Of a DNA stretch of 29,246 nt, positions 2,186 to 27,920 are shown piece after piece (the stretch's first letter is position 1; every line of letters begins with the position of its first letter). The stretch covers positions 1-29,246 of IMG/VR virus record IMGVR_UViG_3300037231_000278; one strand, 5' to 3'. The notes under the pieces are model-generated. The model was not told the DNA's origin, ran no database searches, and saw only the letters and a program-made list of their open reading frames with translations. The DNA is from a virus. The position numbers were made by a program, and so were the translations under genes.

Positions 2186-3286
2186 CTAACGCCCCTCGAT
2201 CCGCCGGGGGAACAGCAGGCGCTGGCTCCAGGCGACGATGGGGCGTTCGGCGGCATAGTGGAGGATCAGGCCGCCAAGGGTGGCGATCAGGAAGGTCGCG
2301 GCGATGAGGACCGCGCCGGGCAAGCCCGGCGCGTGGCGGCTGGCCAGGCCCAGGACCGCCGACACGAAGGCGGTGTGGGTCAGGTAGATGCAGTAGGAGG
2401 CGTCGCCCAGGCGGCGGCCGAGGTCGCCGATGAGCCCGGTTGGCGGCCGCGCCGCACAGGCGGCGGCCAGAGTGGCGCAGCAAACCAGGCCGAGGACGAT
2501 CACCTGCCAGGGGACGTCCCGCTGGTAGGCCATCGCCCAGGCCAGGGCGAAGACAGCTGCGACCCCGGCGACGGTGGCCGGCGCGGCCCAGACGGCGGTG
2601 GGCCAGGTCTCGCGGCGGCGCACATAGATCAGGCCGAGCACGACGCCGAGGCCGAACAACAGGTCGATGGGGTTGCACAGGAAGAAGGCGATGTCGGGAC
2701 CTGGGCCGACGTAGGGGCCGAACAGGCACTGGAACGCCGCCCAGGCTAGCGGCGCGAGCATCCAGGCCGCGAGCAGCCAGCGGCGGCCGGACAGGAAGGT
2801 CAGGGCGAAGACGCTGTAGAACAAGACCTCGTGCCGCAGGGTCCAGACCGGGCTGGGCGCCACGACGCCGAACGGCCAGATCACCGCGGCGCGGACATAT
2901 TCGAGGACCGGGAAAGTACCCCGGCCGCCGACGCGCAGCAGTGCGTAGCCGACGATCACCACCCACAGGAACGGCACGATGCGGGCGAACCGGCGCTTGA
3001 AGAACACCCAGGCGCCCATGGTCGGCGCCCACCCCGCGTCCACCGCGATGTAGACGATGATGAAGCCGGAGAGGGTGAAGAACAGATCCACCCCCACCGC
3101 GCCAGTCTCGAGCACGGCGCCGAAGGGGTGGCGGCCGTAGTATTTGGCCTCGGACATCATCGAGCTGACGTGGTCGAGCACGACCATGAGCGCGGCCAGC
3201 CCGCGAACGTACTGGATGCCGGCAAGCTCGTGCCGGCTGGCCGGCTTGAGCTCGAAGGCGGCCCTGATCCGCTGGACGAGGCTCAA
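2186..3286 (-). CDS. Acyltransferase-3 family membrane O-acyltransferase (receptor modification)
   Basis: A 366-aa polytopic membrane protein of the acyltransferase-3 (OafA/Oac-type) family, which moves acyl groups, usually acetyl, onto cell-surface polysaccharide. Visible family features are the N-terminal IQYVRGLAALMVVLDHV helix with Arg28 and His39, the GVDLFFTLSGF motif near residues 65-75, and about ten hydrophobic helices. The start is TTG, overlapping the stop of the SGNH gene by TTGA; the next Met is far inside the conserved region. Phages such as Sf6 carry this class for O-antigen acetylation and serotype conversion. Here it pairs with a membrane SGNH protein. The substrate is unknown. 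Confidence 0.85.
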   Translation of the reverse strand: MSLVQRIRAAFELKPASRHELAGIQYVRGLAALMVVLDHVSSMMSEAKYYGRHPFGAVLETGAVGVDLFFTLSGFIIVYIAVDAGWAPTMGAWVFFKRRFARIVPFLWVVIVGYALLRVGGRGTFPVLEYVRAAVIWPFGVVAPSPVWTLRHEVLFYSVFALTFLSGRRWLLAAWMLAPLAWAAFQCLFGPYVGPGPDIAFFLCNPIDLLFGLGVVLGLIYVRRRETWPTAVWAAPATVAGVAAVFALAWAMAYQRDVPWQVIVLGLVCCATLAAACAARPPTGLIGDLGRRLGDASYCIYLTHTAFVSAVLGLASRHAPGLPGAVLIAATFLIATLGGLILHYAAERPIVAWSQRLLFPRRIEGR

Positions 3287-4140
3287 TTCACCGCCGGAAG
3301 ATGATGGCTGACATAGGCGGCGAGCTCACGGTTCCCGGCGGGGCTGGGGTGGTAGTCGTTGTGGTAGAGGCCGGCGTTCCAGGCTGGATCATCGGCTATA
3401 CGGATTACGAACAGGTTCGCTCGATGCTCGGCCGTCAGTTCGTCTGTCAGTGGCCGAAAGCCATCGAGATGTTTGACGATATCATTCCGCACCGGCAACT
3501 CGATGAAGATCACCTGACCGCGGTAGGTCGTCAAAAACTGGTGCAAGGCCTCATGCCACTTGGCGGTTGACTCGGCGGATGGATGAGGATCATCCGAGCG
3601 GGGATCTGGCCGGTAGAAATACTTCCCAACAAGATAGATGCTCGCGAACCACGGGTGATGCGTCGGGTGAGCGAACTCGTCATCCCAGCCGTGAGCCGGA
3701 CCAAAGTCCCCCCGATTCGATAGGATCATGATCCGCTTAAGCGCGAACACCTCTGGATGACTGTTGAGCCATCCAAGTTCGTTCGCCAGCCCCCAGCCCT
3801 TTGCACCTACTGGCCAGACAATCGAGCCGGTGTCCTTCTGAAGCAGCGGACCGACTTTACCGGCCTGCTTCATGAAGCTGATGCTGCCCTCCGTCTCGCT
3901 GTCGCCGATGATCAGGCTTCCAACGGGCCGGAATGGCGCGGCGACGCCCATACCATGTTCGTTGTAAACCCAGTCACTGCGCCGCAAGAACGTGCCTCGT
4001 TGGTTTGGCGCAGAATGATATTGGTCGGCCGCATCCCGAACATAGACCGGAAATCCGGTCGCGCCCACGATCCGCAGAGTGAGCTCTCCGGCGAGCAACA
4101 GCCCCGTGAGGGCTATGACGCCAATCCATAACGTTCGCAT
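3283..4140 (-). CDS. Membrane-anchored SGNH-hydrolase-like protein, partner of the acyltransferase
   Basis: A 285-aa protein with one N-terminal membrane anchor (about residues 4-25) and a periplasmic domain. A GDS motif (Gly79-Asp80-Ser81, in SLIIGDSETEG) supplies a candidate nucleophile. DYHPSPAGN near residues 262-270 supplies the C-terminal Asp/His pair. This arrangement matches the SGNH/AlgX-like domains that accompany acyltransferase-3 proteins, fused or as separate subunits, in polysaccharide O-acetylation. It overlaps the acyltransferase start by 4 bases, so the two are probably made together. Base composition is visibly AT-richer than the tail genes, which suggests acquisition from elsewhere. 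It could also act as a deacetylase. Confidence 0.75.
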   Translation of the reverse strand: MRTLWIGVIALTGLLLAGELTLRIVGATGFPVYVRDAADQYHSAPNQRGTFLRRSDWVYNEHGMGVAAPFRPVGSLIIGDSETEGSISFMKQAGKVGPLLQKDTGSIVWPVGAKGWGLANELGWLNSHPEVFALKRIMILSNRGDFGPAHGWDDEFAHPTHHPWFASIYLVGKYFYRPDPRSDDPHPSAESTAKWHEALHQFLTTYRGQVIFIELPVRNDIVKHLDGFRPLTDELTAEHRANLFVIRIADDPAWNAGLYHNDYHPSPAGNRELAAYVSHHLPAVN

Positions 4141-4206
4141 GCTAATCCCCGTCTAGTTGCGACGCTAGGCGACGACGAGCGGCAACGCCAGTGGGCGCGG
4201 TTCATA

Positions 4207-6084
4207 TCAGTAGGGAAGCCAGGTATTTGTCGAAACATTGCACTTGGCCGCCGTGGCCCTTGTGAGCGTTCCAGGACTGGTATTCACAGCGACCGAGCCG
4301 GACGTCGTGGTCAGCGTCAGCGCGGTGATCGTCGTCGTTGTCGTGATATGCGCGACCTTCCCCGGATAATTCGAGTCGCAGCTCGGCAGCTGGACTGTCA
4401 GCGCCGCTAAGCCACCGCTGATGTTGAGGTCCAGTGTGTCTCCGGTGTCGGGGATAATGACGGTGGAACCAGAGGTCGCGGTCGTGTTGTAGGCCGAACC
4501 TTGGTCCGAGAAACCCTCGGTCGTGTACCACATGCCCTTGCCGGTCATCCCGGCCTGGCAGTTGGACTGGCCACCCATTTGCATGCAGATGAAGGTGTTC
4601 TGGCCGCCGCCGATGGTGATCGTGCCGCTGGCACCAGTGAAGCCGATAATTTGGGTAAGCACGCCCTGAAAGCCCTGGGCCTGATTATACCCCCAAATCC
4701 CCTGACTGCCGCCCAAGGTGATGCTTGAACCGAAGAAGGTCTCGCCATTGAAGGTCACGGTGCCGTTGTACTGGATCGGCGCGGAGAACTGAGCGGACTG
4801 GCCGTGGCCGGTCACATGACCGTTTTGAGTCTGGCCGAACAAAGCATTCGTAAGGGCCGTGGTGGATTTGATGTACGCGGCCACCAGCGCGTCGGCCGCA
4901 CCGCTCACATGCAGGAAGTCGGAGATAGTGAATGCCGCGCCGGTCAGGTGGGTCGCCGCCGTTCCGCCAGTTCCATACCCTCTTATGCAGGCGGTGACGT
5001 TGTTGCCGCTGACGGCGGAGACGTAGATGTACTCGCTGTCGACCTTGAGAACGCCGGTAGCCACCGTGCCCAATGTGGGCGTCAGGGCGAACGAGCAAGT
5101 TGAAGTGCTTGAAATCGCCCCGGCCAGCGTTCCCCTGACGATGATTGCCCTCAGGCTGCGGGGCGGAATGTCGTTGGCGTGATCATAGGCGTCGGCCGGG
5201 TCGCTCAGGTTGGCCTGACTGACCAGATATTCGCGCCAATCGAAGTAGTGGCTGCCGTAGATGCCGGCCAGCACGGTGTTGTCGGCGACGATGGTGGCGT
5301 AGGCGCTCGACCCGCTGGGCTCATATTCGGCATTGATGATACTGAAGACCAGGTTGTTCGGCGACGCCGCCGTCATGCCGGCGAGGTCGCCCTCGATCTG
5401 CGAAAGCTGCGTGTTGTTGTTACGGCCGGCGACGATCACCGTTGGCGCGACATTCAAGACAGCGGCATCTGGGATGAAGACCGATTGCGCGGCGCACGCT
5501 TGCGGCGCGGCCGAGAGCAACGACGACACGGTCGGATTGTCGGGGATGAAGTTGTAGGAGACTGAGGTCGACGGCGGCCCGCCAGAGCCCTGGCCCGACA
5601 ACAGACCGTGGATGCCGCAGACCGTTCCATAGAGGTAGAGGTTGTTGTCGCTGCTCGTGGTGTTGAGGAAGCGGTAGTCCGGGTCCTGGTTGGTCGCCAT
5701 GCCGCCCATTGACGACAGGGTGACGCCCTGGATCGCGGTGATCGTCGAGTAGCTGTAGTAGATCAGGTTACTGGAGAAGGTCAGCTGAATCGGCACGCCG
5801 CCTTGACGCATGGCGATCTGCGTCGATTTCTGCGACCCGATCCCGAGGTTTACGAAGGTCGTTCCGAATTGGGCCTGCAGTGCCGTGCCGAGGTCGACGC
5901 CGGAATAGTCTTCCTCGCCCCGCGCTAGGCTGTCTCCCTGGATAGTGCCATCAATACCGGCGGCGTTGGAGATGGTAGACGCCGGCGCCGGGGATGACGC
6001 GGAGAACCCAGGCGCAGGAGTCAGCATCAGCGCGGAAGCCAGAAGGACAGCAAGCGCCGGGTGGGCACGCGATAGAAGCGTCAT
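4207..6084 (-). CDS. SGNH-hydrolase tail-fibre/receptor-binding protein with signal-peptide-like N-terminus
   Basis: A 625-aa protein. Residues about 44-320 look like an SGNH esterase: TIQGDSLARG with Ser52, NLGIGSQKS as the oxyanion glycine region, VIVAGRNNN near 217-224, and an Asp/His cluster DAYDHANDIPP near 298-308. The C-terminal half (about 430-625) is Gly/Thr/Ser-rich beta-type sequence ending in WLPY, like phage fibre C-termini. Such proteins can deacylate surface glycans during adsorption. Unusually, residues 1-29 read as a Sec signal peptide (basic start, Leu/Ala core, FSA exit). A strong Shine-Dalgarno (GGAGG/GAGGGA) precedes the ATG. It may therefore be a virion protein or an exported esterase. 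Confidence 0.7.
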   Translation of the reverse strand: MTLLSRAHPALAVLLASALMLTPAPGFSASSPAPASTISNAAGIDGTIQGDSLARGEEDYSGVDLGTALQAQFGTTFVNLGIGSQKSTQIAMRQGGVPIQLTFSSNLIYYSYSTITAIQGVTLSSMGGMATNQDPDYRFLNTTSSDNNLYLYGTVCGIHGLLSGQGSGGPPSTSVSYNFIPDNPTVSSLLSAAPQACAAQSVFIPDAAVLNVAPTVIVAGRNNNTQLSQIEGDLAGMTAASPNNLVFSIINAEYEPSGSSAYATIVADNTVLAGIYGSHYFDWREYLVSQANLSDPADAYDHANDIPPRSLRAIIVRGTLAGAISSTSTCSFALTPTLGTVATGVLKVDSEYIYVSAVSGNNVTACIRGYGTGGTAATHLTGAAFTISDFLHVSGAADALVAAYIKSTTALTNALFGQTQNGHVTGHGQSAQFSAPIQYNGTVTFNGETFFGSSITLGGSQGIWGYNQAQGFQGVLTQIIGFTGASGTITIGGGQNTFICMQMGGQSNCQAGMTGKGMWYTTEGFSDQGSAYNTTATSGSTVIIPDTGDTLDLNISGGLAALTVQLPSCDSNYPGKVAHITTTTTITALTLTTTSGSVAVNTSPGTLTRATAAKCNVSTNTWLPY

Positions 6085-6088
6085 TCCC

Positions 6089-6610
6089 TCAATCCTCCAT
6101 AACAGACACGAACGCGCCGCCGGTCAGGGCGGCGGGGGCGTAGATTTGCAGGCGGCCTTTGAAGGTGGTGCTGCTCCAGGCGCCGCCTTGGGCGCCGGGG
6201 GCTGGGCCGCCGCCCAGGGCGAAGACGGAGGCGTTGGTTGGCGCGGCGCCCGAGGCGGCGGTCCCGTCGTCGCGGACCACGACAATGGTCGCGCCGGTGC
6301 AGTTCTCGACGTCGATATTGGCCCGGGTCGGGTTGGCCGCGCGGGTGGCCGCCACGACATAGCCGTCGTAGATTCCGGCGCCGAAGGTCGCGCCGATGTT
6401 AGGGATGGTGGGCGCGCCCGCGCTGTAGTCGCGGCCGGTGGATCCGGCGTTGGGGACCAGCGCCTCCAGCGCCGCGAGCAGGGCGGCGCGCTGGGTTACA
6501 TCCTCCACATGGTAGGGCGTCAGCGAACCATTGCTGTTCAGCTGGACGTCAAAGGTCTGGCTGGACCCCGCGCCGTCCTTCACCAGAAGGGTCGTGTCGG
6601 TCATCGGCAT
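6089..6610 (-). CDS. Tail-tip accessory protein of unknown function
   Basis: A 173-aa protein, rich in Ala, Gly and Thr, with short beta-strand-like repeats and no membrane segment. I do not recognise a family. The stretch SSQTFDVQLNSNGS near the N-terminus resembles short domains of other phage tail-associated proteins. The start is set by a TGATG overlap with the collagen-like gene upstream (ATG 6608-6610); a second ATG two codons on is possible. It lies between the collagen-like protein and the SGNH fibre gene, so a role as a fibre adaptor or receptor-binding accessory is plausible but inferred from position. Confidence 0.6.
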   Translation of the reverse strand: MPMTDTTLLVKDGAGSSQTFDVQLNSNGSLTPYHVEDVTQRAALLAALEALVPNAGSTGRDYSAGAPTIPNIGATFGAGIYDGYVVAATRAANPTRANIDVENCTGATIVVVRDDGTAASGAAPTNASVFALGGGPAPGAQGGAWSSTTFKGRLQIYAPAALTGGAFVSVMED

Positions 6611-6870
6611 CAAACTCCAAAGGCCAGGAGGCCGCTCTGGTTGGGGTTGGAGAAATCGAGTTGGGCCGCGCGCAGGGCGGCAATGATCAGCACCAGGGCG
6701 ACCATGGCCGCCTGGACATTGGTCGCGCCGAGAGCGGTCTGACTGTCGTCATAAGTGACGGTCGAAGCCACGCCTGGTCCGGCGGGGCCTTGCGGACCTA
6801 TGGGCCCGCGCGGGCCGCTAGGCGCGCGGATGACGGAGGTCGAGCCCTCCTCCCCGATCAGCCAGGTCAT
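6610..6870 (-). CDS. Small collagen-like (Gly-Pro-X) phage protein
   Basis: An 86-aa protein with five consecutive Gly-X-Y triplets (GPRGPIGPQGPAGPG, about residues 19-33), then a polar region and a hydrophobic helix (about 55-70). Short collagen-like stretches in phage proteins make trimeric fibre stalks. It overlaps the upstream gene by ATGA and the downstream gene by TGATG, so it belongs to the same translational unit. Its small size suggests it forms a linker or neck rather than a full fibre. The hydrophobic helix might be a trimerisation segment or, less likely, a membrane span. Confidence 0.65.
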   Translation of the reverse strand: MTWLIGEEGSTSVIRAPSGPRGPIGPQGPAGPGVASTVTYDDSQTALGATNVQAAMVALVLIIAALRAAQLDFSNPNQSGLLAFGV

Positions 6871-7223
6871 GCCAGGCCCTCGGCGATACGGGCGTGGCCG
6901 AGCAGCAGCGTCTGGGTGTCGCCGGCGGGATAGGTGACGATCAGGTCCCAGTCGTAGAGGCCGGGCGCGAGGGCGGAAACCACCGCGACCGGCGCGGTGA
7001 TGGCGATCTCGTTGGGGAGGGTCAGCGTCAGCATGCCGTTGTCGGTGGTGAATTCCGTGGCGTTGGCGGGTTGGCCGGCGAGGCGAAGGCCGAGCTTGGC
7101 CGCGGCGCCGGTGAAGTCCTCCGGCTGGCCGGGACCGCCGGCGAAGAAGCGGAACGGCTCCTCGTTCCAGTCGGCGTTTGTGTACGCGACCAGCACGCGC
7201 GGCAGCGTGGCGGCTTCAGGCAT
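6867..7223 (-). CDS. Tail-associated protein, unknown family
   Basis: A 118-aa beta-rich protein. The sequence shows alternating hydrophobic strands and a conserved-looking LYDWDLIVTYPAGDTQTLL segment near the C-terminus. Such small proteins (a Tyr-Asp-Trp-Asp strand followed by a Gly-containing turn) occur in baseplate and fibre clusters, but I cannot name the family. An AGGAG Shine-Dalgarno lies upstream of the ATG. It starts the small adsorption-gene string 7223 to 4207, all linked by overlaps or gaps of a few bases. The 265 bases upstream (7224-7488) show no convincing gene. Confidence 0.6.
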   Translation of the reverse strand: MPEAATLPRVLVAYTNADWNEEPFRFFAGGPGQPEDFTGAAAKLGLRLAGQPANATEFTTDNGMLTLTLPNEIAITAPVAVVSALAPGLYDWDLIVTYPAGDTQTLLLGHARIAEGLA

Positions 7224-7488
7224 GGGGGTGCTCCTGGGAATGAGGGGTTCAGTCCAACCCGTCGCCCCAAATCATGCCGCCTCCCCAACCTCGCGCCGGG
7301 GGGTCCATTGGATTCGGGCAGTGGGGATTGGGTTGCTGGTTGCGCCGCTGCGACCTTCGAACCGATCGCGCTCAATGGGTCCCCGGCACAGGGCCAGGGG
7401 AGACGGGGTTATATCGGGGGAACGCGTAAGGTTGGACGCCGGTGGAACTGGCGATCGCGCCCGGCGGTGGATCAGCTTTGAGTTTGGG

Positions 7489-7943
7489 CTAGCGTTTGCC
7501 GCCGGCGCTATGCTGGCCGCTGTTGTCCCCGGAGCTTTGATGGCCCCGAAGAAGCGCTATCATCCCGCTGGCAATTGCGCCGCCACCGACGACACAGCCA
7601 ATCCACTGGGCGTTGTGAAGCACGGCGAAGGCCGCCACGCCAAGCGCGGCCAGGCCAAAGATAAGCGCGGAGACTTGGCCTAATGGGTCTGTCGCACCAC
7701 CAGCCGGGCTTCGCGATCTTCTTGCGCGCGTCTATGACTCGCCTCAAGTTTGAATTCGTTGATAATCTCGGCCGCGGAGCCGGGATGGATTTCTTCAAAT
7801 GCTCTCAGCGCGTCGGGCGGCGGCAACGGACCCTGCCAGCCCTGCAACGTCATCCGCACTTCAGCGGCGGCGACGCCTTGAGTCCTTGTCGCCTGCGGCT
7901 GAACTGCGCTGGTTCGTTGTGGAGGGCGGCTACCGCGCGCCAC
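7489..7943 (-). pseudogene. DUF2335-family membrane protein, frameshifted
   Basis: The first 87 codons (7943 to 7680, GTG start; ATG at 7851-7853 is an alternative) encode the cytoplasmic part of a DUF2335 protein: WQGPLPPPDALRAFEEI, then a charged helix ending VVRQTH and a TAG stop. The -1 frame directly after continues LGQVSALIFGLAALG and a second hydrophobic segment, ending in Gly/Ser-rich sequence at a TAG at 7489-7491. Joined, they give a normal DUF2335 layout of about 151 aa with two C-terminal membrane helices. Loss of one T at the CATTAG site would explain it. A sequencing error or a real inactivation both fit. DUF2335 has no known function. Confidence 0.75.
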
Positions 7944-8145
7944 GAGCCGTCTTTACGCGGTCAACGGCCTTACGCATGTCGGCGCCCAATCGCTCCCAAT
8001 CGCCGCGAAGAGCCTCCGCCGCGGTTTTACGGGTGCCTGGGAACGGCCGATGGCTGGTAGGCCCAACCACCGAAACGATGTCCGCAAGCCCCGTTACGAA
8101 CCCTCTTTGAAGGTATCGGCCGGCTTTCATCGCCAATCTGGTCAT
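7930..8145 (-). CDS. Small hypothetical protein upstream of the DUF2335 gene
   Basis: A 71-aa basic protein. The C-terminal half, TAAEALRGDWERLGADMRKA, is a convincing amphipathic helix with alphaproteobacterial codon use, so I take it as real. It overlaps the start of the DUF2335 gene by 14 bases, which implies a two-gene unit. I do not know its function. Small proteins of this kind beside DUF2335 membrane proteins suggest a partner, but that is inference. No strong Shine-Dalgarno is seen before the ATG at 8143-8145. A palindromic site at 8223-8239 lies about 80 bases upstream. Confidence 0.5.
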   Translation of the reverse strand: MTRLAMKAGRYLQRGFVTGLADIVSVVGPTSHRPFPGTRKTAAEALRGDWERLGADMRKAVDRVKTARGAR

Positions 8146-8202
8146 ACAACGATCTCGCGCCCGCGCGCGCCCTTCAGGGCTGAGGCTGACGGTACATATG
8201 GG

Positions 8203-8245
8203 TGCGGACAGGTCAATGTTTAGTTCGCAATATGCGAACAGGTCA
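8203..8245. promoter_or_regulatory. Candidate operator: 7-bp palindrome flanked by a 13-bp direct repeat
   Basis: GTTCGCA-ATA-TGCGAAC (8223-8239) is a perfect 7-bp inverted repeat with a 3-base centre. TGCGRACAGGTCA occurs twice (8203-8215 and 8233-8245), exactly 30 bp apart, about three helical turns. The site lies between the end of the long tail-tip gene and the small two-gene accessory unit, so it could control that unit. The binding protein is unknown. Confidence 0.4.
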
Positions 8246-11200
8246 GGTGCGGGCGATGACCAACACTGACGCAGAACGTTCGGGGTCGCTCGCGTCGCCG
8301 GTGGCGCCCGTGGTGTTGGTGGTCCCGCCGCTGGCGGATCCGCCGGCGCCGGGGGTGGTGAGGGTGGCGTCAGCGCCGGCGGAGGCGCTCAGGGACGGGC
8401 TGGTTACCGTGGCGTTTCCGCCGCCGGGGGCGACCAGGGTTCCGGCGAGGGTGGTCGAACCGGCGGTCACAGCCAGACCGGCGTAGGTCGTGACGCCGCC
8501 GGCGCCGCCGGATTGGACCAGGGTCTCCATGCCTTCCGGGCGGATGTAGCGGTTGGTTCCGTCGGCGCCGGTGAGAATGATGTCGACGTGGGCCAGGAGG
8601 TAGCTGGACGGGATCGTGTAGGAGAAGGCGCCCGGCGTCGAGCTGGAAAACAGGATCGTTCCATCGGCGGTGGTGGTCGTCGGAACGCCCACCGCGAGCC
8701 CTGTGGCGATCGTGGCGATGGCGGTGATCACGCCGTTCACCAGATAGGCGACGCCGACGTCATAGTCGGCGCCCGCGGTGATGGAGGTGATGTCCAGAAC
8801 CGCGGTGTTGATCGGGTGCTGGCCGGCGCTGATCCAGGCGCTGGTTCCGGTGACGCGGTAGTAGAAGATCACCGCGGTGGCGGACGGGTTATCGCTGGCG
8901 CCGGTGATCCGCAGCGCCGGGGTTGAGACGCCGGCGTTGGCCAGGGTCACGGCGCTGGCGGTCCAGGCCGAGCCGGGCGCGGCGCCGGCGGCGGGAATCG
9001 GGACGATCGGATAGGCGATGCAGTCGGCGAGACTGACCTCCGCCTGGCCGAACGGATTGAAGGACTGGAACTTCACATAGATCGTCTGGCCGACGTTGGT
9101 GGCGAGATAGGGAAACTGGAACACCGCGCTGTCCAGGCGGACAAAGGGATCGCCCGCAGGGTGGTCGGCGATGGGGGTGTTGAGATAGCCGCGGCGGATG
9201 TAGGTCCCCAGGGCATAGCGGCTGGGGTTGGTGAGGGTCGCGGCCTCGTAGGCGATCAACTCGCCATCGACCAGGCAGAGGGTGGCGCCGTTGTCGGCGG
9301 CGCTGGAGGAGGCGCCGGTGAGGACGCCTTCGCTGGCGCCCAGGTCGACGGAGAGGGTGTCTGTCGTGTCAGGGTCGGTGTGGGCCGGAAAGTCGGCGGT
9401 GAGGAGACCGTAGCGGGCGGGACCCTCGATGGTCCCAATGTGCTGGTAGCTGTCACCATCAACCGAAACCCAAACGACCGCGCCGCCCCAGTTGGGGCCG
9501 CCGGACGCCGCGGCCCAGACCTCGCCCTGCAGGGCCAGGACCGAGGGTGGGTTGAACAGGTACGGCCCGGCGACAGACGCGCCGGTCTGGGCGTAGATCC
9601 CGATGGCGATCCCTTGGCGCAACTGGGCCTGGGAGACATTGATCGCGTTCGATCCATCGCCGGCCCAGGTCAGGTCGCCACTGTCGTCGCAGGCGCTGAT
9701 CTGGGCGGTGAGCGCGGTCGCGGTGGGGAAGGCCGTGGTCAAGACCACCTGCCAGATTCCAGAGACGAGGGTTGCGGTCAGGGCGGAGGCGACCAGGATC
9801 GCGTTGCCCGTCACAGTCGCCGGTGCCGTGATGACGCCGGCGCTGAGGTCGACGGTTATCTGGGCGGCGTTTCCGGCGCCGTCGCTCAGGCTCACCTGGG
9901 CGATCTTGTGGGCGTTGGCCTGGAGGCAGACGGCGAAGGTGTAGTTCAGGCCTTCGAAGACGCTGACGGTCTGGGCGATGGCGTGGCCGCCGGATGTGGC
10001 CGAGGGGACGATGGCGCAGGCGGTGGCCAGGCCATAGGCGTCATTGGCGATCGCGCCGGCCACCGTGCAGTTGGCTTTTGTCCAGACCGCGTTGGTCTGG
10101 TCGCCGCTCCAGAGCAGCAGGTTGGCCTCGACGCCACCGGGATCGACGGCGGGGTTGGCGACATAGCCGTCGCCCGCCTGCATCTCGTAGAGCGGGGTGT
10201 GGGCGACGCCGACGGGATAGTCTTCGCAGGTAAAGCTGAGGCCGTACTTTTCGTCCTGGTCGATCTGGGTGACGCGAACCGGATAGTCGATCAGGCCCAG
10301 CCCGGCGTCGGTGAGCTCGATGATGTCGCCGGGCTCCAGCAGGGCGAACATCCAGCCGAGTTTGAACTTGTACTGGGCGCGAATGTAGAGGGTGCGCTGG
10401 AGATAGAGCTGGGCGCTGATGGCCGCGACCGAGGGATCGCAGATGACGTGGACCGTGGTCGGATCCTGCCGCCGGGCGCCGTATTGGGCGATGTTGGCGG
10501 CGTCCGAGGCCAGGGCGATGGCCATATTGTACTGGTTGGTGCGGTCCAGGTACTCGAGCTGGACCACGTTGTAGGCGTCGGACTGGTCCTCGATGTCCAC
10601 CTGCAGCGGCGGATCGCCGGGACTGTCGACGATATAGTCGTCGTCGTTCAGCGAGTAGATCGGCGTGGACGGGGGCGTGTAGGTCTTGCCGTTTCCAGTG
10701 AGCGCGGTGTCGCCATAGGGGACAAACTTCAGCACCCCCTCCGACCAGACGCAGGTGGCGTTGGTGGCGAGCAGAACCTCCTTCAGGAAATCCGAGGCGG
10801 AGCGTTCCTGGTCGATGACCGGCGAGAGCAACAGGCCCGAGGCCAGGCAGTAGTCCTGGTAGGCGGTCAGGTCGCCGAGCAGGCCGGTAGCGGGCCAGAG
10901 CGGCACGCCGGTGCGCGGGTTCTGAAAGAAGTCGGCGACGACCAGGGAGGGGTCGGCGTCCTTGCCGGTGGCCGTGACGACAGGGCCGAAGCCGGTGGTG
11001 CGGGTGACCTCGAAGGAATTGTTGGGCGGGCTGGCGTCGGCGTCCAGGCCGTAGTTGGCGGCGTAGGCGATGGCGATGCCGGAATAGCCGATGGCGTGGT
11101 TCGGATGATTGCTGGTGAGGTAGCTCCAGGGCGCCTGTCCGATGGCGCCGGACTGCATGGTCAGACCGGCCTGCTGCAGCGCCGTCTTCGAATTGTTGGA

Positions 11201-16733: not shown

Positions 16734-17471
16734 TCAGCCGGTCATCGTCCAAGAGAAAACATTCCCCGTTCCGTCGTCCTGGGCGGACATGTCCAGGGAC
16801 GGGAGGCTGAAGTCGTCGAGTTTCAGCGGTAGGCCGAGCTTGGACGCCTGGACGGCGGGGAAGGTCAGGGAGATGGACTTGCCCTTGAACTGGTTGACCA
16901 GCTGCAGCGAGAAGATTGGGCCGGAGCCGATCAGGGTGTTGACGCCGGCGATGGTGGTTCCGGTGGAGGCGGAGCTGTAGGTATAGTTCAGCTTGATCAG
17001 CCCGCCGGTGTCGGCGGCGGCGAAGGTGTAGACGCCGGTGGTGGTGTTCACCGCGTATTGGCCGGTGGCCGGCGCGGCGGGGACGCGGGTGAGGAACCGG
17101 CCGAGGGTGATGGAATAGACGCCGAGGTCGGTCTTGAAGGTCGCGCCATTGGCCGCGGTCACCTGGTAGGGCGAGCCGGGGATGGCGGCGGATTCCGAGA
17201 TGGAGTTCAGCACCTCGCCCACCGAGGTGGTCTGGCCGAAGTATATCTGGTTGAACAGATTGGGATCGAACCGGCCGACGGCGGCCTTGATGTCGATCTT
17301 GCCCTTGCCCCTCGCCTGCTCCAGGGCGAACTGGCTCTGGCCATAGAGGGCCTTCAGATCGAAGCTGAAGTCGACGGCGGTGTCCTGCACCGCGCCGAAC
17401 ATGACCGGCGTCGGATTCGCGCCGGAGGGAATGCCGAACAGATAGCCGGCGCCGAAGACGGACTGGACCAA
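16734..17471 (-). CDS. Major tail tube protein
   Basis: A 245-aa beta-rich protein that should polymerise into the tail tube. Features are an N-terminal region GAGYLFGIPSGANPTPV, a central hydrophobic strand set and FSLQLVNQFKGKSISLTFPAV near the C-terminus, matching phage major tail proteins of the type found before G/GT chaperone genes. The inserted region about residues 120-165 (VYSITLGRFLTRV, YAVNTTTGVYTF) may be an added loop or domain. The start is a TTG (17469-17471), supported by AAGGAG seven bases upstream; no ATG exists near the conserved N-terminus. The stop of the small upstream gene is only two bases away. Confidence 0.85.
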   Translation of the reverse strand: MVQSVFGAGYLFGIPSGANPTPVMFGAVQDTAVDFSFDLKALYGQSQFALEQARGKGKIDIKAAVGRFDPNLFNQIYFGQTTSVGEVLNSISESAAIPGSPYQVTAANGATFKTDLGVYSITLGRFLTRVPAAPATGQYAVNTTTGVYTFAAADTGGLIKLNYTYSSASTGTTIAGVNTLIGSGPIFSLQLVNQFKGKSISLTFPAVQASKLGLPLKLDDFSLPSLDMSAQDDGTGNVFSWTMTG

Positions 17472-17472
17472 A

Positions 17473-17670
17473 TCAAAGCTCCTTCATGATGGCCGCGGCC
17501 AGGTGCTGGAGGCTCTGCTCCAGGTGGTTCCAGCATTCGGTGATCCGCGCGATCGGCCCGCCGGCGATCAGCTCGTCGCGCCAGGCGCGGATGGCGGATT
17601 CGATGCGGGCTTCGAGGGTGGGCGCGGGTGTGGAAGTCGGCGCGGGCGCAGCCGGAGTGTCATCGGCCAT
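17473..17670 (-). CDS. Small protein upstream of tail tube, unknown
   Basis: A 65-aa protein: a Pro/Ala/Thr-rich N-terminal 18 residues, then a helical segment (LEARIESAIRAWRDELIAGG) ending in a second helix. A clear GGAGG Shine-Dalgarno lies before ATG 17668-17670, and the stop is two bases from the tail tube start, whose ribosome site it contains. Codon use is like the phage genes. I do not recognise a family. Its tight link to the tail tube gene suggests a small structural or assembly factor. Confidence 0.6.
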   Translation of the reverse strand: MADDTPAAPAPTSTPAPTLEARIESAIRAWRDELIAGGPIARITECWNHLEQSLQHLAAAIMKEL

Positions 17671-17731
17671 GGGGGCCTCCTTGGGTGGGGAAATTCAGGA
17701 TTTCGGGGCGGCGCTTGCGCGCACGTTCGGC

Positions 17732-17780
17732 ATCTCAAGCCGGTTGAGGGCTCGAACAGTCGACCGCCGGTTTACAAGGG
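17732..17780 (-). other. tRNA-Thr(UGU)-like 3'-half remnant
   Basis: Read on the minus strand, the sequence contains CTTGTAA (an anticodon-loop pattern for UGU), then ACCGGCGGTCGA, GTTCGAGCCCTC and AACCGGC. That is the order of the 3' half of an alphaproteobacterial tRNA: anticodon loop, variable region, T-loop, acceptor. The 5' half and proper T-stem pairing are missing, so it is not a functional tRNA. It could be a relic of a tRNA-type integration site, or chance. It sits directly downstream of the three-gene cassette. Confidence 0.3.
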
Positions 17781-17820
17781 CGACGGCACAGACCGTAGAG
17801 AACCACAAAATTTCATTAGG

Positions 17821-18378
17821 TTAAGCGAGCGCGTCGGGCGGCGCGGCACCCGGTTCGGGAGCTTTTCCGGGCAGCGGATCAATCCGGTTGGGAGCGAACT
17901 TTTCCTCGAGCTTGTCCCGCACACGATCGAAAGAGGATCGGTCAGGCAACTGCCTTACACGAATCACGACGTGCAATGGATTGTCTTTCTCAGGCGAGTC
18001 CGGGAACACTTGCCCGTCGTCATATACAAATACGATCTGTTCCCCCGCCTCCCCGTCCAGTTCGATGCTTCGAATGTCGGCTGCCTTCGCGAAAACGGCG
18101 CCGCGGCTAGCTATGCCTTTGCCGCCCGCAAACTCCTCAGCCCGTTCCGCGATTTCGCCGTCAGATAGTCCCGCCCTCCGAAAAACTGAGAGGCCACTCG
18201 ACTCGCCACAATTATTTTGGACCGGCTTGATAGGCTGCAGCTCGTTCCGTTTAAACCGCTCACCCGGCGAATTGTCATTCTTGGCATGAAGCAGGCGATA
18301 GACTTCTTCATCGCCCTCGACCGACCCGGGAGACTGCGGACAGCGATGGGCAGAGTCTGGATCGTCAGTCCAACTCAT
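17821..18378 (-). CDS. Cassette gene 3: soluble protein of unknown function
   Basis: A 185-aa charged protein, no membrane segment. The N-terminal portion contains EVYRLLHAKNDNSPGERFKR and then LSVFRRAGLSDGEI (about residues 26-76). From memory, short R-hh-H...LSV-R patterns like this recur in small uncharacterised bacterial proteins encoded beside a WDGEG-type protein. The middle (IVFVYDDGQVFPDSP) is beta-like, and the tail is Pro/Ala-rich. Its start overlaps the stop of gene 2 (TGATG), so it is translationally coupled. It is AT-richer than the flanking tail genes. It is the last gene of the cassette, followed by the tRNA-like remnant. No function is claimed. Confidence 0.6.
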   Translation of the reverse strand: MSWTDDPDSAHRCPQSPGSVEGDEEVYRLLHAKNDNSPGERFKRNELQPIKPVQNNCGESSGLSVFRRAGLSDGEIAERAEEFAGGKGIASRGAVFAKAADIRSIELDGEAGEQIVFVYDDGQVFPDSPEKDNPLHVVIRVRQLPDRSSFDRVRDKLEEKFAPNRIDPLPGKAPEPGAAPPDALA

Positions 18379-18932
18379 CAGGCGATGCGGCTCAGCTCAT
18401 CGAAAAGCGCTTCAGGGGCGACGCCATTGTATAGCGCGTCCAGCTTGAGTGGAGACGCTCTACCAGGACGATGCACATAAGCAATGATATGCCCATCGTC
18501 CATGAAGGCGACGGAGCCAAATGAACTGTCAGTCTTCCAGCGAAGTCCAATCTCGCCAGGGCCGTCTATAAATGGCTGGGGCGCGGTCAATATCCGTTGG
18601 CGCGCAGCTCCTAAGAAGTCCACGGCCCGTTGAACCAACATGCGTGACGGAGCTGGTGATCCTTCTCCGTCCCAATCGAGCGGAAGATCCGCCCACCGCG
18701 TAATGGCATCGGTTGCCTGCGCCCACTTATTCAACGTGATGACACTCTTAGCATCGACCGGGGCCGGCGAAATGGTGTGCGGGGGTGGTGCGTAGTAGCT
18801 AGCGCAAGGGGTCACGTAAGCTGCAGTTGCGTCGGCTTGAGCGGGTGAAGCCGCCACAATTATCGCCGCCGTCTCGAACACGAGTATCCAACTAAATGCG
18901 CCATTCGAGCGCGTTTGGACTGGCATAGGCAT
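18378..18932 (-). CDS. Cassette gene 2: WDGEG-motif protein with N-terminal hydrophobic segment
   Basis: A 184-aa protein. Residues about 12-34 form a hydrophobic segment ending AQADA, readable as a signal peptide or membrane anchor. The core has LPLDWDGEGSPAPS (about 83-96), then a helix with FLGAARQRI, GEIGLRWKTD and a beta hairpin FMDDGHIIAYVH. This L-P-x-x-W-D-G-x-G...G-E-I-x-L-x-W arrangement is a pattern I recognise in uncharacterised bacterial proteins, without known function. I use ATG 18930-18932 because it overlaps the gene 1 stop as TGATG; a longer frame upstream overlaps gene 1. It ends in another TGATG overlap with gene 3. Confidence 0.65.
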   Translation of the reverse strand: MPMPVQTRSNGAFSWILVFETAAIIVAASPAQADATAAYVTPCASYYAPPPHTISPAPVDAKSVITLNKWAQATDAITRWADLPLDWDGEGSPAPSRMLVQRAVDFLGAARQRILTAPQPFIDGPGEIGLRWKTDSSFGSVAFMDDGHIIAYVHRPGRASPLKLDALYNGVAPEALFDELSRIA

Positions 18933-19324
18933 CAGCCTTCCCCGACTTTTGCACGGAGTTCGCCCACGACCTCTTCCACCCCAGCTCCCTCGTTTTTGAT
19001 CAGGTGCCACAGGAGGGTAAGCGCCAAATCCCTCGTGGATTTGACGCTCAAGCGAACGTGCCCGATGTCACACAGCTGTGGCGACATCTGAACTTCGCCT
19101 GGCTTGATTTCGACGGAGGCTCCATTCACCGATTGCACGACAGCGACCTGCGATAAGGCGAAAATTTCCTGCCGGAGGCAGAGCATTTCAACGTAGACGC
19201 CTGGCGCTCCCGCGACGAGAACTTGATCGGGGGTAAGCAACGGGCGCGCTGGCGCCGGCGTGATCGGCATCATCATTTGCTCGCCTATAGCGGGCATTTG
19301 TGGTGCGCGTTTAGTGTCGGTCAA
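18932..19324 (-). CDS. Cassette gene 1: hypothetical protein, leads a coupled three-gene unit
   Basis: A 130-aa protein from a TTG start (GAGAGGA about 9 bases upstream); an ATG nine codons in is the alternative. The Met/Pro-rich N-terminus is probably disordered. The rest has beta strands with VNGASVEIKPGEVQMSPQLC and an amphipathic helix STRDLALTLLWHLIKN. No family recognised. It lacks membrane segments. It is joined to gene 2 by TGATG. The three genes form one transcript on the late strand but have lower GC than the head and tail genes, so they look like later cargo. Confidence 0.6.
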   Translation of the reverse strand: MTDTKRAPQMPAIGEQMMMPITPAPARPLLTPDQVLVAGAPGVYVEMLCLRQEIFALSQVAVVQSVNGASVEIKPGEVQMSPQLCDIGHVRLSVKSTRDLALTLLWHLIKNEGAGVEEVVGELRAKVGEG

Positions 19325-19365
19325 CGCGGGCGTCCTCTCTCGGTTGCGATCTAATAAAGCCTACT

Positions 19366-19506
19366 TCACCGGCTCTGTACATCACACGTGGTGATGTGGC
19401 CCTTCTCTCCCAGAAAATCCACCGCCCCTAATGCCGCTGTCAAATCCTCCGCCGTCGCCAGATCGCCCGTCGTGCGTCGGAACCTGGCGCTGGCTAGCCA
19501 CCACGT
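19366..19506 (-). other. In-frame open extension after the tail terminator stop codon
   Basis: Directly after the tail terminator TGA (19507-19509), the same frame stays open for 46 more codons and reads like ordinary protein (FRRTTGDLATAEDLTAAL, then AVDFLGEKGHITT) with GC-rich third positions. It has no start codon of its own near the beginning. It may be a remnant of a longer gene, a relic left by insertion of the cassette, or a stop-codon read-through extension. Confidence 0.3.
19379..19397. promoter_or_regulatory. Palindromic site upstream of the three-gene cassette
   Basis: ACATCAC-ACGTG-GTGATGT has 7-bp inverted arms around a 5-base centre, with a perfect CACGTG core (19385-19390). 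It lies about 55 bases upstream of the cassette's first start codon, where an operator would sit. Downstream on the minus strand, an AT-rich TTTATTAG could serve as a -10, but I see no good -35. The function is a guess from position. Confidence 0.3.
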
Positions 19507-19947
19507 TCAAGGCCCCACGATCTGGATCGGCACGATGATCAGCGCCTGGCCGTCGAGGTCGCCGCTGTCCTTGAACACCTTGCCGCTGATGAAGGCGTGG
19601 TGGACCAGGCCGCCTAGGGTTTGGGCGTGGTCGGGGTCGTCGGACGGGAACAGCGACTGGATGGCGTCGAGGATCTGGTTGGTTTCGCGGGCCGGCGCGG
19701 CGTCGGGGTCCTTGCCGGCGTCGTGGTAGATCAGCCAGCTGGCGCCGAAGACGCGTTTGGGCGGCAGGCCGGTGACCTGGGTGATGGTCTCGTCGTGCTC
19801 GGCCTGGCAGAGGGCCGGCTGGCCGGGCAGATCGCTCCACAGCTTCACCCGGCGCGCGCGGTGCAGGAAGCTGCGCGGCGGGGCGCCCCAGGCGAGGCCG
19901 TCGGTGAGGGCGAACAGGGCCTCGAAGATGGCTTCGCGGGTGGTCAT
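19507..19947 (-). CDS. Tail terminator / tail completion protein (DUF3168-like position)
   Basis: A 146-aa protein following the gp10-like gene with an ATGA overlap, where HK97-type phages encode the tail terminator that caps the tube at the neck. The sequence has an N-terminal helix (REAIFEALFALTDGL), a strand LPGQPALCQAEHDETI and a C-terminal beta strand QALIIVPIQIVG, which fits a small alpha/beta fold. RVKLWSDLPGQPALC is the kind of segment seen in phage minor tail proteins. The assignment rests mainly on gene order. The frame remains open after its stop (see separate entry). Confidence 0.7.
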   Translation of the reverse strand: MTTREAIFEALFALTDGLAWGAPPRSFLHRARRVKLWSDLPGQPALCQAEHDETITQVTGLPPKRVFGASWLIYHDAGKDPDAAPARETNQILDAIQSLFPSDDPDHAQTLGGLVHHAFISGKVFKDSGDLDGQALIIVPIQIVGP

Positions 19948-26003: not shown

Positions 26004-26777
26004 CTATCCTACTAAGTCGTCGTATTCATCATCATCTAGGACGGCCTTTTGAGCCTCAAGTAGCTTGATCAACTTTCCAATTTCTCGCGGACCCATGTCC
26101 CCAGAAACGATCAGGCGATAGCGTGTGTCACGAGAAAGCGGGCCACGAATCCATTCCCGCTCGTCCTCCGAAATCGCATCTGATCCCCCGACTGTCGCGC
26201 GCGCTGAACCCTGGACCGCTTTCAGCGAAGCCACGGCGGGGGCAGCATCTGCCGTGATCCTTTCGGTCGCCGGGACCTCATCCGGTTCGGGCGCTTCCGA
26301 TTCATATCCCGCAGTTTCGGCGTCAACCAGCTCGCAGGTCTCGCGATATGATCGAATCAACTTCATAGCTGAATCGGGCAAAAACTGGCGTTTAGTTATA
26401 AGATAGGCGCGAATAGCCGCGTCACTTGCCTTCTCTGGAAAGAGGTCGTTGAGCTCGCGGTATAGGTCCGGTTCATTTGCCGCCGCGCGAAGTGCCGCAA
26501 TACGCTCAGGGTCAGTTCGTTCTCGTTCAATTATATCAACAGCACGAGCCGTTACCCACATGGATTCAATGCCACCGTCAAGCAATCCGTACTTAGAAAC
26601 CGCAGAGATAACTCCGAGTGACGCGCCATTAAGTCCGCCGTATTTCATGTGTTCGGCCACCAGACTCTTCGGGATTTTGTTGCGATTGTCCTTCTTATAG
26701 ACCTCGGCAACCTTCTCGATTGCCTCCCTAAGGCCAATCACTGGGTAGCGCGGGCTGCGAATGAATTTTATGGCCAT
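26004..26777 (-). CDS. Hypothetical protein with winged-helix-like N-terminal domain
   Basis: A 257-aa soluble protein. Residues about 8-150 read as a helical, winged-helix-like domain: SPRYPVIGLREAIEKVAEVY, HMKYGGLNGASLGVISAVSK, YGLLDGG and VTARAVDIIERER; such blocks occur in uncharacterised proteins where a short wHTH senses or binds nucleic acid. Residues about 160-200 are acidic and linker-like, and the C-terminus (YRLIVSGDMGPREIGKLIKLL) is a second small domain. A GGGAGGG ribosome site precedes the ATG. GC is well below the structural genes. It lies inside the terminase-portal gap, so it is cargo rather than virion structure. DNA binding is inference only. Confidence 0.65.
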   Translation of the reverse strand: MAIKFIRSPRYPVIGLREAIEKVAEVYKKDNRNKIPKSLVAEHMKYGGLNGASLGVISAVSKYGLLDGGIESMWVTARAVDIIERERTDPERIAALRAAANEPDLYRELNDLFPEKASDAAIRAYLITKRQFLPDSAMKLIRSYRETCELVDAETAGYESEAPEPDEVPATERITADAAPAVASLKAVQGSARATVGGSDAISEDEREWIRGPLSRDTRYRLIVSGDMGPREIGKLIKLLEAQKAVLDDDEYDDLVG

Positions 26778-27079
26778 AGGACCCTCCCATCGTTCGCCTC
26801 AAACCTATATCTAATCGCCAGCCGTCGCAAGAGATTGCGTTTAACCGGCGTTCCGCTTTCGAATTGGCCGTTGACGTTAATCGCGAACGGCGCCACTAGG
26901 AGGGGCAACGAATGGCGATGCTATATTTGGAGGGTTTGCCTGCGCGACGTCACATTCGCGCTCGCGGCCGAACCACGAGACACAAGCTGGTGGGCGTGAA
27001 CTGACGATGTTCGCCGCTCCGTTCAAATTCAGGCGGCGATTCCCCCGGGCCTTCGCAACCTTTCAAAGCGAGAGCAGCC
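26778..27079. other. Divergent intergenic region with possible promoters
   Basis: About 300 bases between two divergent accessory genes. On the minus strand TTGCGA (26825-26830), 15 bases, TATAGG (26804-26809) is a weak promoter candidate for the winged-helix-like gene. A 30-codon frame at 26912-27004 has AGGAGG upstream, but its Arg-rich product looks like chance. I see no repeat or RNA structure that I can defend here. Confidence 0.3.
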
Positions 27080-27604
27080 GTGAACTGGGGCAAGATCAAA
27101 ATTGACGAGGTGGAGGTCGATCTAACCCATCTAGATCCGTTCACGATCAACGTTACGCCTGCTGCACCTGGCTCGCCGACATACAAGGTGTTGGTGTCAT
27201 TCAGCCATCATGCATTCACCCGTGATTTGGTCGACACGGACTTGCCCAAGCATTACTTTGGACCCGCTCACGACGTCAGGTGCTTTTGTGCAGACCGCCA
27301 CAGGTTGTCATTGTCATTGCCGGAGATCGTAAAGGCTGCAGCAACAGGCAAGGCCTATTTCCCCGCTCGCAACCATCCTGTTCAACGGAACTTTCTCCTG
27401 GTCAAAATCGCAGCGGACGAGCCACCTTACCTGATCGTCTTTAACCTAGAGCGCGCGCGTGGCGTCGACGCAGATGCGGTCATGAACATCGTCAGCGCTC
27501 ACCCGCGCCCTGGGCTTGGTTCAACGCGAAAGATGGCCAGCATTCGCTTGGCGACCCTGGTGTCAAAAACGGTGCGCGGTGAACGTGTGGTTCGGCCCAG
27601 TTGA
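27080..27604 (+). CDS. Hypothetical soluble protein on the plus strand
   Basis: A 174-aa protein starting at GTG (27080-27082). It lacks signal or membrane segments. The core YKVLVSFSHHAFTRDL, then HDVRCFCADRHRLSLSLPEIV, LLVKIAADEPPYLIVFNLERAR and MNIVSAHPRPG looks like a compact alpha/beta fold. FSHHAFTR and the Cys pair CFC are the most distinctive parts. I recall similar uncharacterised proteins spread among proteobacteria, without function. It converges on the minus-strand small-RNA terminator, which begins within three bases of its stop. AT-richer than virion genes. It is likely an independently expressed cargo gene. Confidence 0.65.
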   Translation: MNWGKIKIDEVEVDLTHLDPFTINVTPAAPGSPTYKVLVSFSHHAFTRDLVDTDLPKHYFGPAHDVRCFCADRHRLSLSLPEIVKAAATGKAYFPARNHPVQRNFLLVKIAADEPPYLIVFNLERARGVDADAVMNIVSAHPRPGLGSTRKMASIRLATLVSKTVRGERVVRPS

Positions 27605-27633
27605 AAAAGAAACAGCCCCCTTTCGGGGGCTGT
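27601..27633 (-). terminator. Rho-independent terminator
   Basis: Read on the minus strand: ACAGCCCCC, loop GAAA, GGGGGCTGT, then TTCTTTTTCAA. A 9-bp perfect GC-rich stem with a GNRA tetraloop followed by a U-rich tract is a textbook intrinsic terminator. It ends the candidate sRNA and would also stop read-through from the terminase gene towards the portal. On the plus strand there is no U tract after the stem. Confidence 0.85.
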
Positions 27634-27714
27634 CCTGTGCGAGAATACCCCTTACCCCCGCGCTCCGCAGGACCCTTTCGGGCGGGCCGTTGTGTTTCGC
27701 TCGCTAGCAACGAC
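27603..27714 (-). ncRNA. Candidate small RNA, about 110 nt, with own promoter and terminator
   Basis: The transcript predicted from the promoter at 27721-27749 runs to the terminator. It contains CGTTG...CAACG near the 5' end, a CCC-GAAA-GGG hairpin, a longer stem GTCCTG...CAGGAC closing over GGGGGTAAGGGG, and the terminator hairpin with another GAAA loop. The overlapping reading frames look like chance translations. The strong structure, promoter spacing and terminator make a regulatory RNA the best reading; family unknown. The minus strand downstream of terminase is where it would be made. Confidence 0.55.
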
Positions 27715-27720
27715 GCACGC

Positions 27721-27749
27721 ATAATGCGCGGTGATGGGTTAAGTTTCAA
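27721..27749 (-). promoter_or_regulatory. Sigma-70-like promoter for the candidate sRNA
   Basis: Minus strand TTGAAA (27749-27744), 17-base spacer, CATTAT (27726-27721). The -35 matches five of six consensus bases, the -10 four of six, and the spacing is ideal. Transcription would begin near 27714. The DNA just upstream is AT-rich (caacattttg), which also fits a promoter. Confidence 0.6.
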
Positions 27750-27920
27750 CAAAATGTTGATTGAATATCGGCGTTCATGGTTCGTCCCGACAGTCAACCC
27801 TATCGCCCCGCGCCGATATCTGGCGTGCAGGTAGCTGAAATTCAAGGCACTCGTCTAAACCCGCTTCCATCGCTTCGGGCGCTTGGGCACACTGCTCTCA
27901 GGGCCGTGTCGATAATACCA

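Follow-up and report, generated by a model that had tools for sequence, protein, structure and literature searches.

Three small genes stand in the tail module of a phage genome, and they raise the question of whether they belong to the tail or are cargo and, if cargo, of what type. The window, i.e. the whole stretch of DNA that was analyzed, is a 29.2-kb virus record. It carries terminase, portal, SU10-type capsid protein and connector genes together with siphovirus-type tail genes, and almost all of its genes are on the − strand. The nearest matches to the window are IMG/VR contigs and one Caulobacteraceae MAG; the carrier phage is a Caulobacteraceae-type siphovirus.

The three genes lie on the − strand. 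Gene 1 (P0001, positions 18932–19324), the first gene of the cassette, has a TTG start and encodes 130 aa. Gene 2 (P0002, positions 18378–18932) encodes a 184 aa protein of a family termed B, which has a WDGxG domain; this protein also has a hydrophobic N-terminus. Gene 3 (P0003, positions 17821–18378) encodes a 185 aa protein of a family termed C, the putative effector. Genes 1 and 2 are joined by a TGATG stop/start overlap at positions 18930–18934 (− strand) and genes 2 and 3 by another at positions 18376–18380 (− strand). All three open reading frames and both exact overlaps are found where the original prediction had placed them.

The composition of the cassette differs from that of its surroundings. 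It had been described as AT-richer than the flanking tail genes, and the figures agree: its GC content is 58.4%, as against 70.1% in the terminator gene and 64.6% in the tube gene, and the GC3 values of the cassette genes are 0.66/0.58/0.61, as against 0.85–0.95 in most resident phage genes of the window. The codon-position GC of gene 1 (0.67/0.42/0.66) gives this open reading frame a coding appearance. Proteins 1 and 3 both look soluble, as proposed.

On one side of the cassette is the tail-terminator-position gene (19507–19947, − strand, phrog_8150 family), whose gene order is kept in relatives. On the other side are a small gene of 65 aa (17473–17670, − strand), the usual neighbor of the terminator gene in relatives, and the tail-tube-position gene (16734–17471, − strand, phrog_8234 family). 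The names “terminator” and “tube” are those of the original prediction and are consistent with the gene order; both PHROG families are annotated as of unknown function.

This site was compared in 17 viral contigs and two MAG contigs that have homologues of the tail-tube gene. The closest relative is L002, the tube of which is 92% identical; here a nucleotide identity of ~90% breaks at the stop codon of the terminator gene and picks up again just ahead of the small 65 aa gene. Because the identity breaks off and then resumes at the borders of the block, the cassette block is a discrete, foreign insert, of about 1.83 kb (about positions 17682–19508). The same spot in L002 is taken by an unrelated DUF1287 gene (Pfam, E-value = 6e-46), which runs on the opposite strand, and L006 has other small open reading frames there. 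In five relatives (L003, L004, L005, L008 and L019) the site is empty, and the terminator-position gene is directly followed by the ~65 aa gene and then by the tube gene. Thus the cassette does split terminator from tube, as had been claimed, since in relatives one ~65 aa gene alone is present between these two. As the site is empty in related phages and occupied by a DUF1287 gene in L002, it is a cargo slot.

No homologue of cassette genes 1–3 was found in any of the 17 related viral loci or the two MAG loci. The absence of the cassette from relatives, together with the variability of the slot, argues for an accessory cargo and not a tail component, which bears out the earlier view of the cassette as phage cargo. 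The locus has the features of a moron in a hotspot: it is inserted between conserved genes, is absent or replaced in relatives and differs in composition. The cassette genes do not display the conservation within the tail module of related phages that marks tail or virion proteins. The tail-operon slot of Caulobacteraceae-type phages is a place to mine for further systems.

Other variable or atypical sites were seen in this phage group. A second AT-rich block in the window (26004–27850; GC 53%–58%, GC3 0.54–0.61) lies between portal and terminase. It has a 257 aa open reading frame at positions 26004–26777 (− strand) with no PHROG match and a 174 aa open reading frame at positions 27080–27604 on the opposite (+) strand; this block looks like a second cargo slot. 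L004 displays a second variable site of the phage group at positions 1403–1868, between the neck and terminator genes, which holds an antisense open reading frame with a DUF5367 match. An Acyltransferase_3/O-acetyltransferase gene (window positions 2186–3286, − strand) adjoins the tail-fibre region and is possibly a receptor- or O-antigen-modifying lysogenic-conversion gene. Past the stop codon of the terminator gene, the frame stays open for 46 codons (19366–19506, − strand) with no in-frame ATG or GTG start. A search for relatives of this open frame gave nothing convincing; it is possibly a remnant of an earlier cargo.

Upstream of gene 1 there is a palindrome (ACATCAC-ACGTG-GTGATGT, positions 19379–19397), as predicted, though by chance alone arms of 7 bp are no rarity; it is a possible operator. 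The tRNA-like remnant proposed downstream was not recovered: ARAGORN gives no tRNA, and Rfam nothing up to E = 1 within positions 17600–19600. A scan limited to sigma-70-like promoters recognized none for the cassette, and terminator-like sites around it are at chance level. A promoter could lie in the 182-bp stretch ahead of gene 1, which includes the small palindrome.

Direct searches with proteins 1–3 in Pfam, PHROGs, PADLOC, NCBIfam, PDB and plasmids yielded only chance-level matches, and the family searches recognized no toxin or antitoxin family in the three proteins. Matches were likewise at chance level for gene 2 in phages, for genes 2 and 3 in viral contigs and for gene 3 in GTDB contigs, and nothing above chance was found for genes 2 and 3 in 249 genomes of the order of the Caulobacteraceae MAG. 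A search with a query consensus gave no match.

The entry to the B family was a weak match to a Segatella plasmid (E-value = 5), which is a real homologue of protein 2 (pairwise E-value = 3e-7). A two-sequence B profile, run on 398 genomes of the phylum, then yielded five convincing B genes, and a seven-sequence profile yielded B genes in 9 of 385 genomes of the class. When protein 2 is left out, the profile of the other B proteins gives it 64 bits, and the best of 1000 shuffles 5. The WDGxG domain of protein 2 spans aa positions ~77–160. Within it, the WDGEG motif is at aa positions 87–91 (nt positions 18660–18674, − strand), and its W and D are invariant in the alignment (A3). The predicted structure of protein 2, made from a shallow alignment, has a pLDDT of ~80–90 at aa positions 61–150 (two helices followed by a beta meander) and is poor at the N-terminus. 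Compared with the PDB, this model shows no match; the best structural match in the viral library is the unnamed protein A0A345BPV0 (E-value = 1.8e-3, TM 0.73 by target length). For the cassette proteins, no catalytic residues or fold were recognized.

The N-terminal region of protein 2 has a hydrophobic stretch at aa positions 11–29 (18846–18902, − strand) with a mean Kyte-Doolittle value of 1.75, followed by a signal-peptidase-like AQA-D (cleavage site by eye); it is a possible signal or anchor. Both properties originally ascribed to the second protein, the motif and the signal- or anchor-like N-terminus, are therefore present. Of the B proteins, only protein 2 and that of L051 have such a stretch. 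The Segatella B protein displays a ribbon-helix-helix-like N-terminus (by eye).

All 13 B loci from whole genomes have a C-family open reading frame directly downstream of B and on the same strand, and the gene spacing is tight throughout the B-C loci. A C profile from L036, L037 and L038, which leaves protein 3 out, gives protein 3 a score of 29.5 bits (best shuffle 5). A six-protein C profile detects eight C open reading frames outside the profile, four of them with E-values of 3e-21, 2.5e-8, 2e-7 and 6e-7 and the remaining four with 5e-6, 6e-6, 6e-4 and 6e-3. The C subfamilies are linked by hhalign (P0003 to C1 96%, C1 to C2 81%, C2 to C3 81%, C3 to M32B 55%, C2 to M32B 43%), with control comparisons, i.e. 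unrelated tail proteins and TIGR04255 proteins, at 0.3% or less. By these sequence comparisons, P0002 and P0003 are distant members of the B and C families, whose genes are nearly always adjacent; the window has the same arrangement, the gene of a WDGxG protein and, right behind it and on its strand, a C-family gene. The homologues of genes 2 and 3 are thus not unlinked single genes. Their co-occurrence, which the original prediction had proposed to look for, holds across unrelated genomes and prophages for genes 2 and 3; the exact trio is not conserved, and no family was detected for gene 1.

The B-C pair is mobile, and many B-C cassettes are flanked by ordinary housekeeping genes. In L059 (positions 3946–5614) a first gene, B and C lie with 1-nt overlaps between gatA- and gatB-like genes (by eye). 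The L052 cassette is found between lolA-like and ftsK-like genes, that of L053 between folP-like and glmM-like genes. Four separate loci with a WHYGxG/WHFGRG/WCHGEG subtype of B (L060, L061, L062 and L089) show B and C open reading frames that overlap by 271–298 nt in different frames, possibly a conserved overprinting.

The first gene varies from locus to locus. In L034, L035 and L036 it is a TIGR04255 gene (NCBIfam, E-values 1e-12 to 1e-15); in L054–L059 it was likened to TIGR04255 by size and look alone. The first gene of L061, L062 and L089 is short (106–154 aa), and L052 and L053 have none. In most cases a TIGR04255 gene leads the B-C pair, and sometimes a short gene does so, as in the window. 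Thus the architecture of first gene, B and C is conserved, and the exact window trio is not.

P0001 itself has no relatives in the searches run. Its similarity to the short genes that come first in L061, L062 and L089 is not significant (hhalign 2%), nor is its similarity to DUF3467. P0001 is not TIGR04255: it has no NCBIfam match, and hhalign to TIGR04255 proteins gives 0.3%.

TIGR04255 was also followed for its own sake and is found in 18 of 200 genomes. In six of 19 TIGR04255 loci it is followed by clear B and C genes (two of these were already among the known B loci), and some others have different pairs. One of them, L118, has TIGR04255 followed by a 95 aa gene and a PemK/MazF toxin gene (PF02452, E-value = 1e-18) beside a DNA methylase. 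In this region (L118 positions 2676–8269) the toxin cassette lies between an open reading frame that looks PglZ-like by eye, with no match in Pfam, and a DUF1156-like DNA methylase, and is apparently inside a defense locus. In L117 (4207–5150), L120 (3225–4168) and L125 (4322–5020), TIGR04255 is followed by another conserved partner set, the last protein of which has 190–232 aa and an ILLSNTCDMS motif; this may be another exchangeable effector. Full-text searches found TIGR04255 named in no open paper.

A B domain and a C-like protein are also found within a known defense candidate, PDC-M32. The B domains of L054 and L062 match PADLOC PDC-M32A only at its C-terminus (positions ~257–363 of 375). 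L078 and L080 have a ~375 aa M32A, with B as its C-terminal domain, and a C-like M32B between hsdM and hsdS (in L078 HsdM was assigned by Pfam; HsdS was assigned by eye, and the M32B of L080 is weakly recognized). The M32B structure model is poor (pLDDT 56). L082, cut by the contig end, shows the order M32A, M32B, hsdS, and in L083 the M32A/B pair adjoins a nucleotidyltransferase gene. In the phages L090–L093 the pair is directly downstream of a repressor-like gene of the CI/S24 type (in L090 HTH_3 and Peptidase_S24 by Pfam), and L062, a viral contig, has an integrase followed by a short gene, B and C. PDC-M32A/B is also listed for a Sinorhizobium prophage in a published PADLOC run (PMC12429752). 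The relatives of B-C and M32 are thus found in type I restriction operons, beside an integrase and the repressors of prophages, and squeezed in among housekeeping genes; the association with defense loci comes from a sample of modest size and without controls.

The reading preferred here, with a probability of roughly 0.55, is that the cassette is a moron-type cargo in a tail-operon slot, a compact tripartite module of defense or toxin-antitoxin-like type. Protein C would be the effector and protein B an antitoxin-like partner that holds or targets it, since the two stand in the toxin place and the antitoxin place. The first gene, here P0001, may be a sensor, regulator or specificity element. 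The tight overlaps would give a fixed ratio of the parts. On infection, or when the balance is lost, C would be released and would halt the growth of either the cell or a phage that competes; the cargo may in this way protect the lysogen, or arrest the cell on an infection signal. The original suggestion of defense- or toxin-type cargo has gained from the B-C pairs found several times inside restriction loci, and the function is putative. The main doubt about the defense-cargo reading is expression, as expression in the lysogen fits poorly with a cassette that is co-oriented with the late tail genes and for which no promoter was recognized.

A wider and more tentative reading is that B-C may form the core of a polymorphic immune or toxin system of bacteria and phages that has not been described before and has three parts, with an exchangeable trigger part, B as common adaptor and C as an effector of a new kind. 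The first part would be TIGR04255, a short gene or the fused N-terminus of M32A, C would be swappable, e.g. for PemK, and the bare cassette would move into operons of housekeeping or restriction genes and into slots of phages. TIGR04255, PDC-M32 and a widespread “hypothetical” gene pair with no Pfam family would then be parts of one exchangeable module. The B-C link makes a role in phage protection or toxicity, and the role of the first gene, concretely testable.

Other readings have to be weighed against that of a defense or toxin-antitoxin-like cargo. A plain addiction (toxin-antitoxin) cassette, which would only stabilize its carrier and would not have been selected for action against phages, would fit compact, coupled and sporadic B-C cassettes at many unrelated chromosomal sites, the PemK/MazF end of one TIGR04255 cassette and the ribbon-helix-helix-like Segatella protein. 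The repeated placement in restriction operons and beside repressors or an integrase, and the lack of a recognized toxin or antitoxin family in proteins 1–3, make this reading unlikely. Lysogenic conversion or superinfection exclusion at the envelope, with protein 2 exported or anchored, is less likely still. The hydrophobic N-terminus with its signal-like end, and the similar stretch in the L051 protein, speak for the envelope component that had been proposed; this part of the prediction is weak, however, as most B proteins, including PDC-M32A, do not share the stretch, which is not a family trait, and proteins 1 and 3 look cytosolic.

About as improbable as action at the envelope is a module with which the infecting phage would counter defense or modulate restriction. 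PDC-M32A/B genes in hsdM-hsdS operons could modulate restriction, and the cassette sits in a lytic (late) operon, but anti-restriction genes usually act early, and cassettes are also found without restriction genes and at non-phage chromosomal sites. The position and orientation of the cassette within the tail module are what would be expected of tail-assembly or virion components, yet the genes are missing from close relatives whose tail modules are intact, have homologues in non-phage chromosomal settings and differ sharply in composition, so that this origin is very improbable.

Four known systems can be compared with the cassette. The TIGR04255 (sporadTIGR04255) cassettes share with the window the order of first gene, B and C and the coupling of the genes; the window differs in that its own first gene is not TIGR04255. 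Type II toxin-antitoxin systems of the PemK/MazF type are similarly small coupled genes, and PemK is third in one TIGR04255 cassette, but no toxin or antitoxin family is recognized in proteins 1–3. Phages and their satellites carry antiviral hotspots between conserved genes, and those of P2-like phages and P4 satellites (PMC9122126) are likewise small, high-turnover loci between two conserved genes; the slot in the window differs in being inside a tail operon and in having a candidate cargo.

The closest comparison is with PDC-M32, a computational candidate for which we know of no mechanism. Here the C-terminal end of M32A is a B domain, the C-like M32B follows directly, and the pair is found in prophages and restriction operons. 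Protein 2 of the window is without the ~250 aa N-terminal part of M32A, and the window has an extra first gene. An assignment of P0002 to M32A was rejected, as P0002 has no PADLOC match and is not a full-length M32A. P0003, directly downstream of P0002, also has no PADLOC match, and its direct hhalign comparison with M32B gives 0.3%; the two are linked only via the chain P0003 to C1 (96%), C1 to C2 (81%) and C2 to M32B (43%). By the tests made, the window cassette is not a member of PDC-M32, and, as judged from sequence, the B-C core is common to both.
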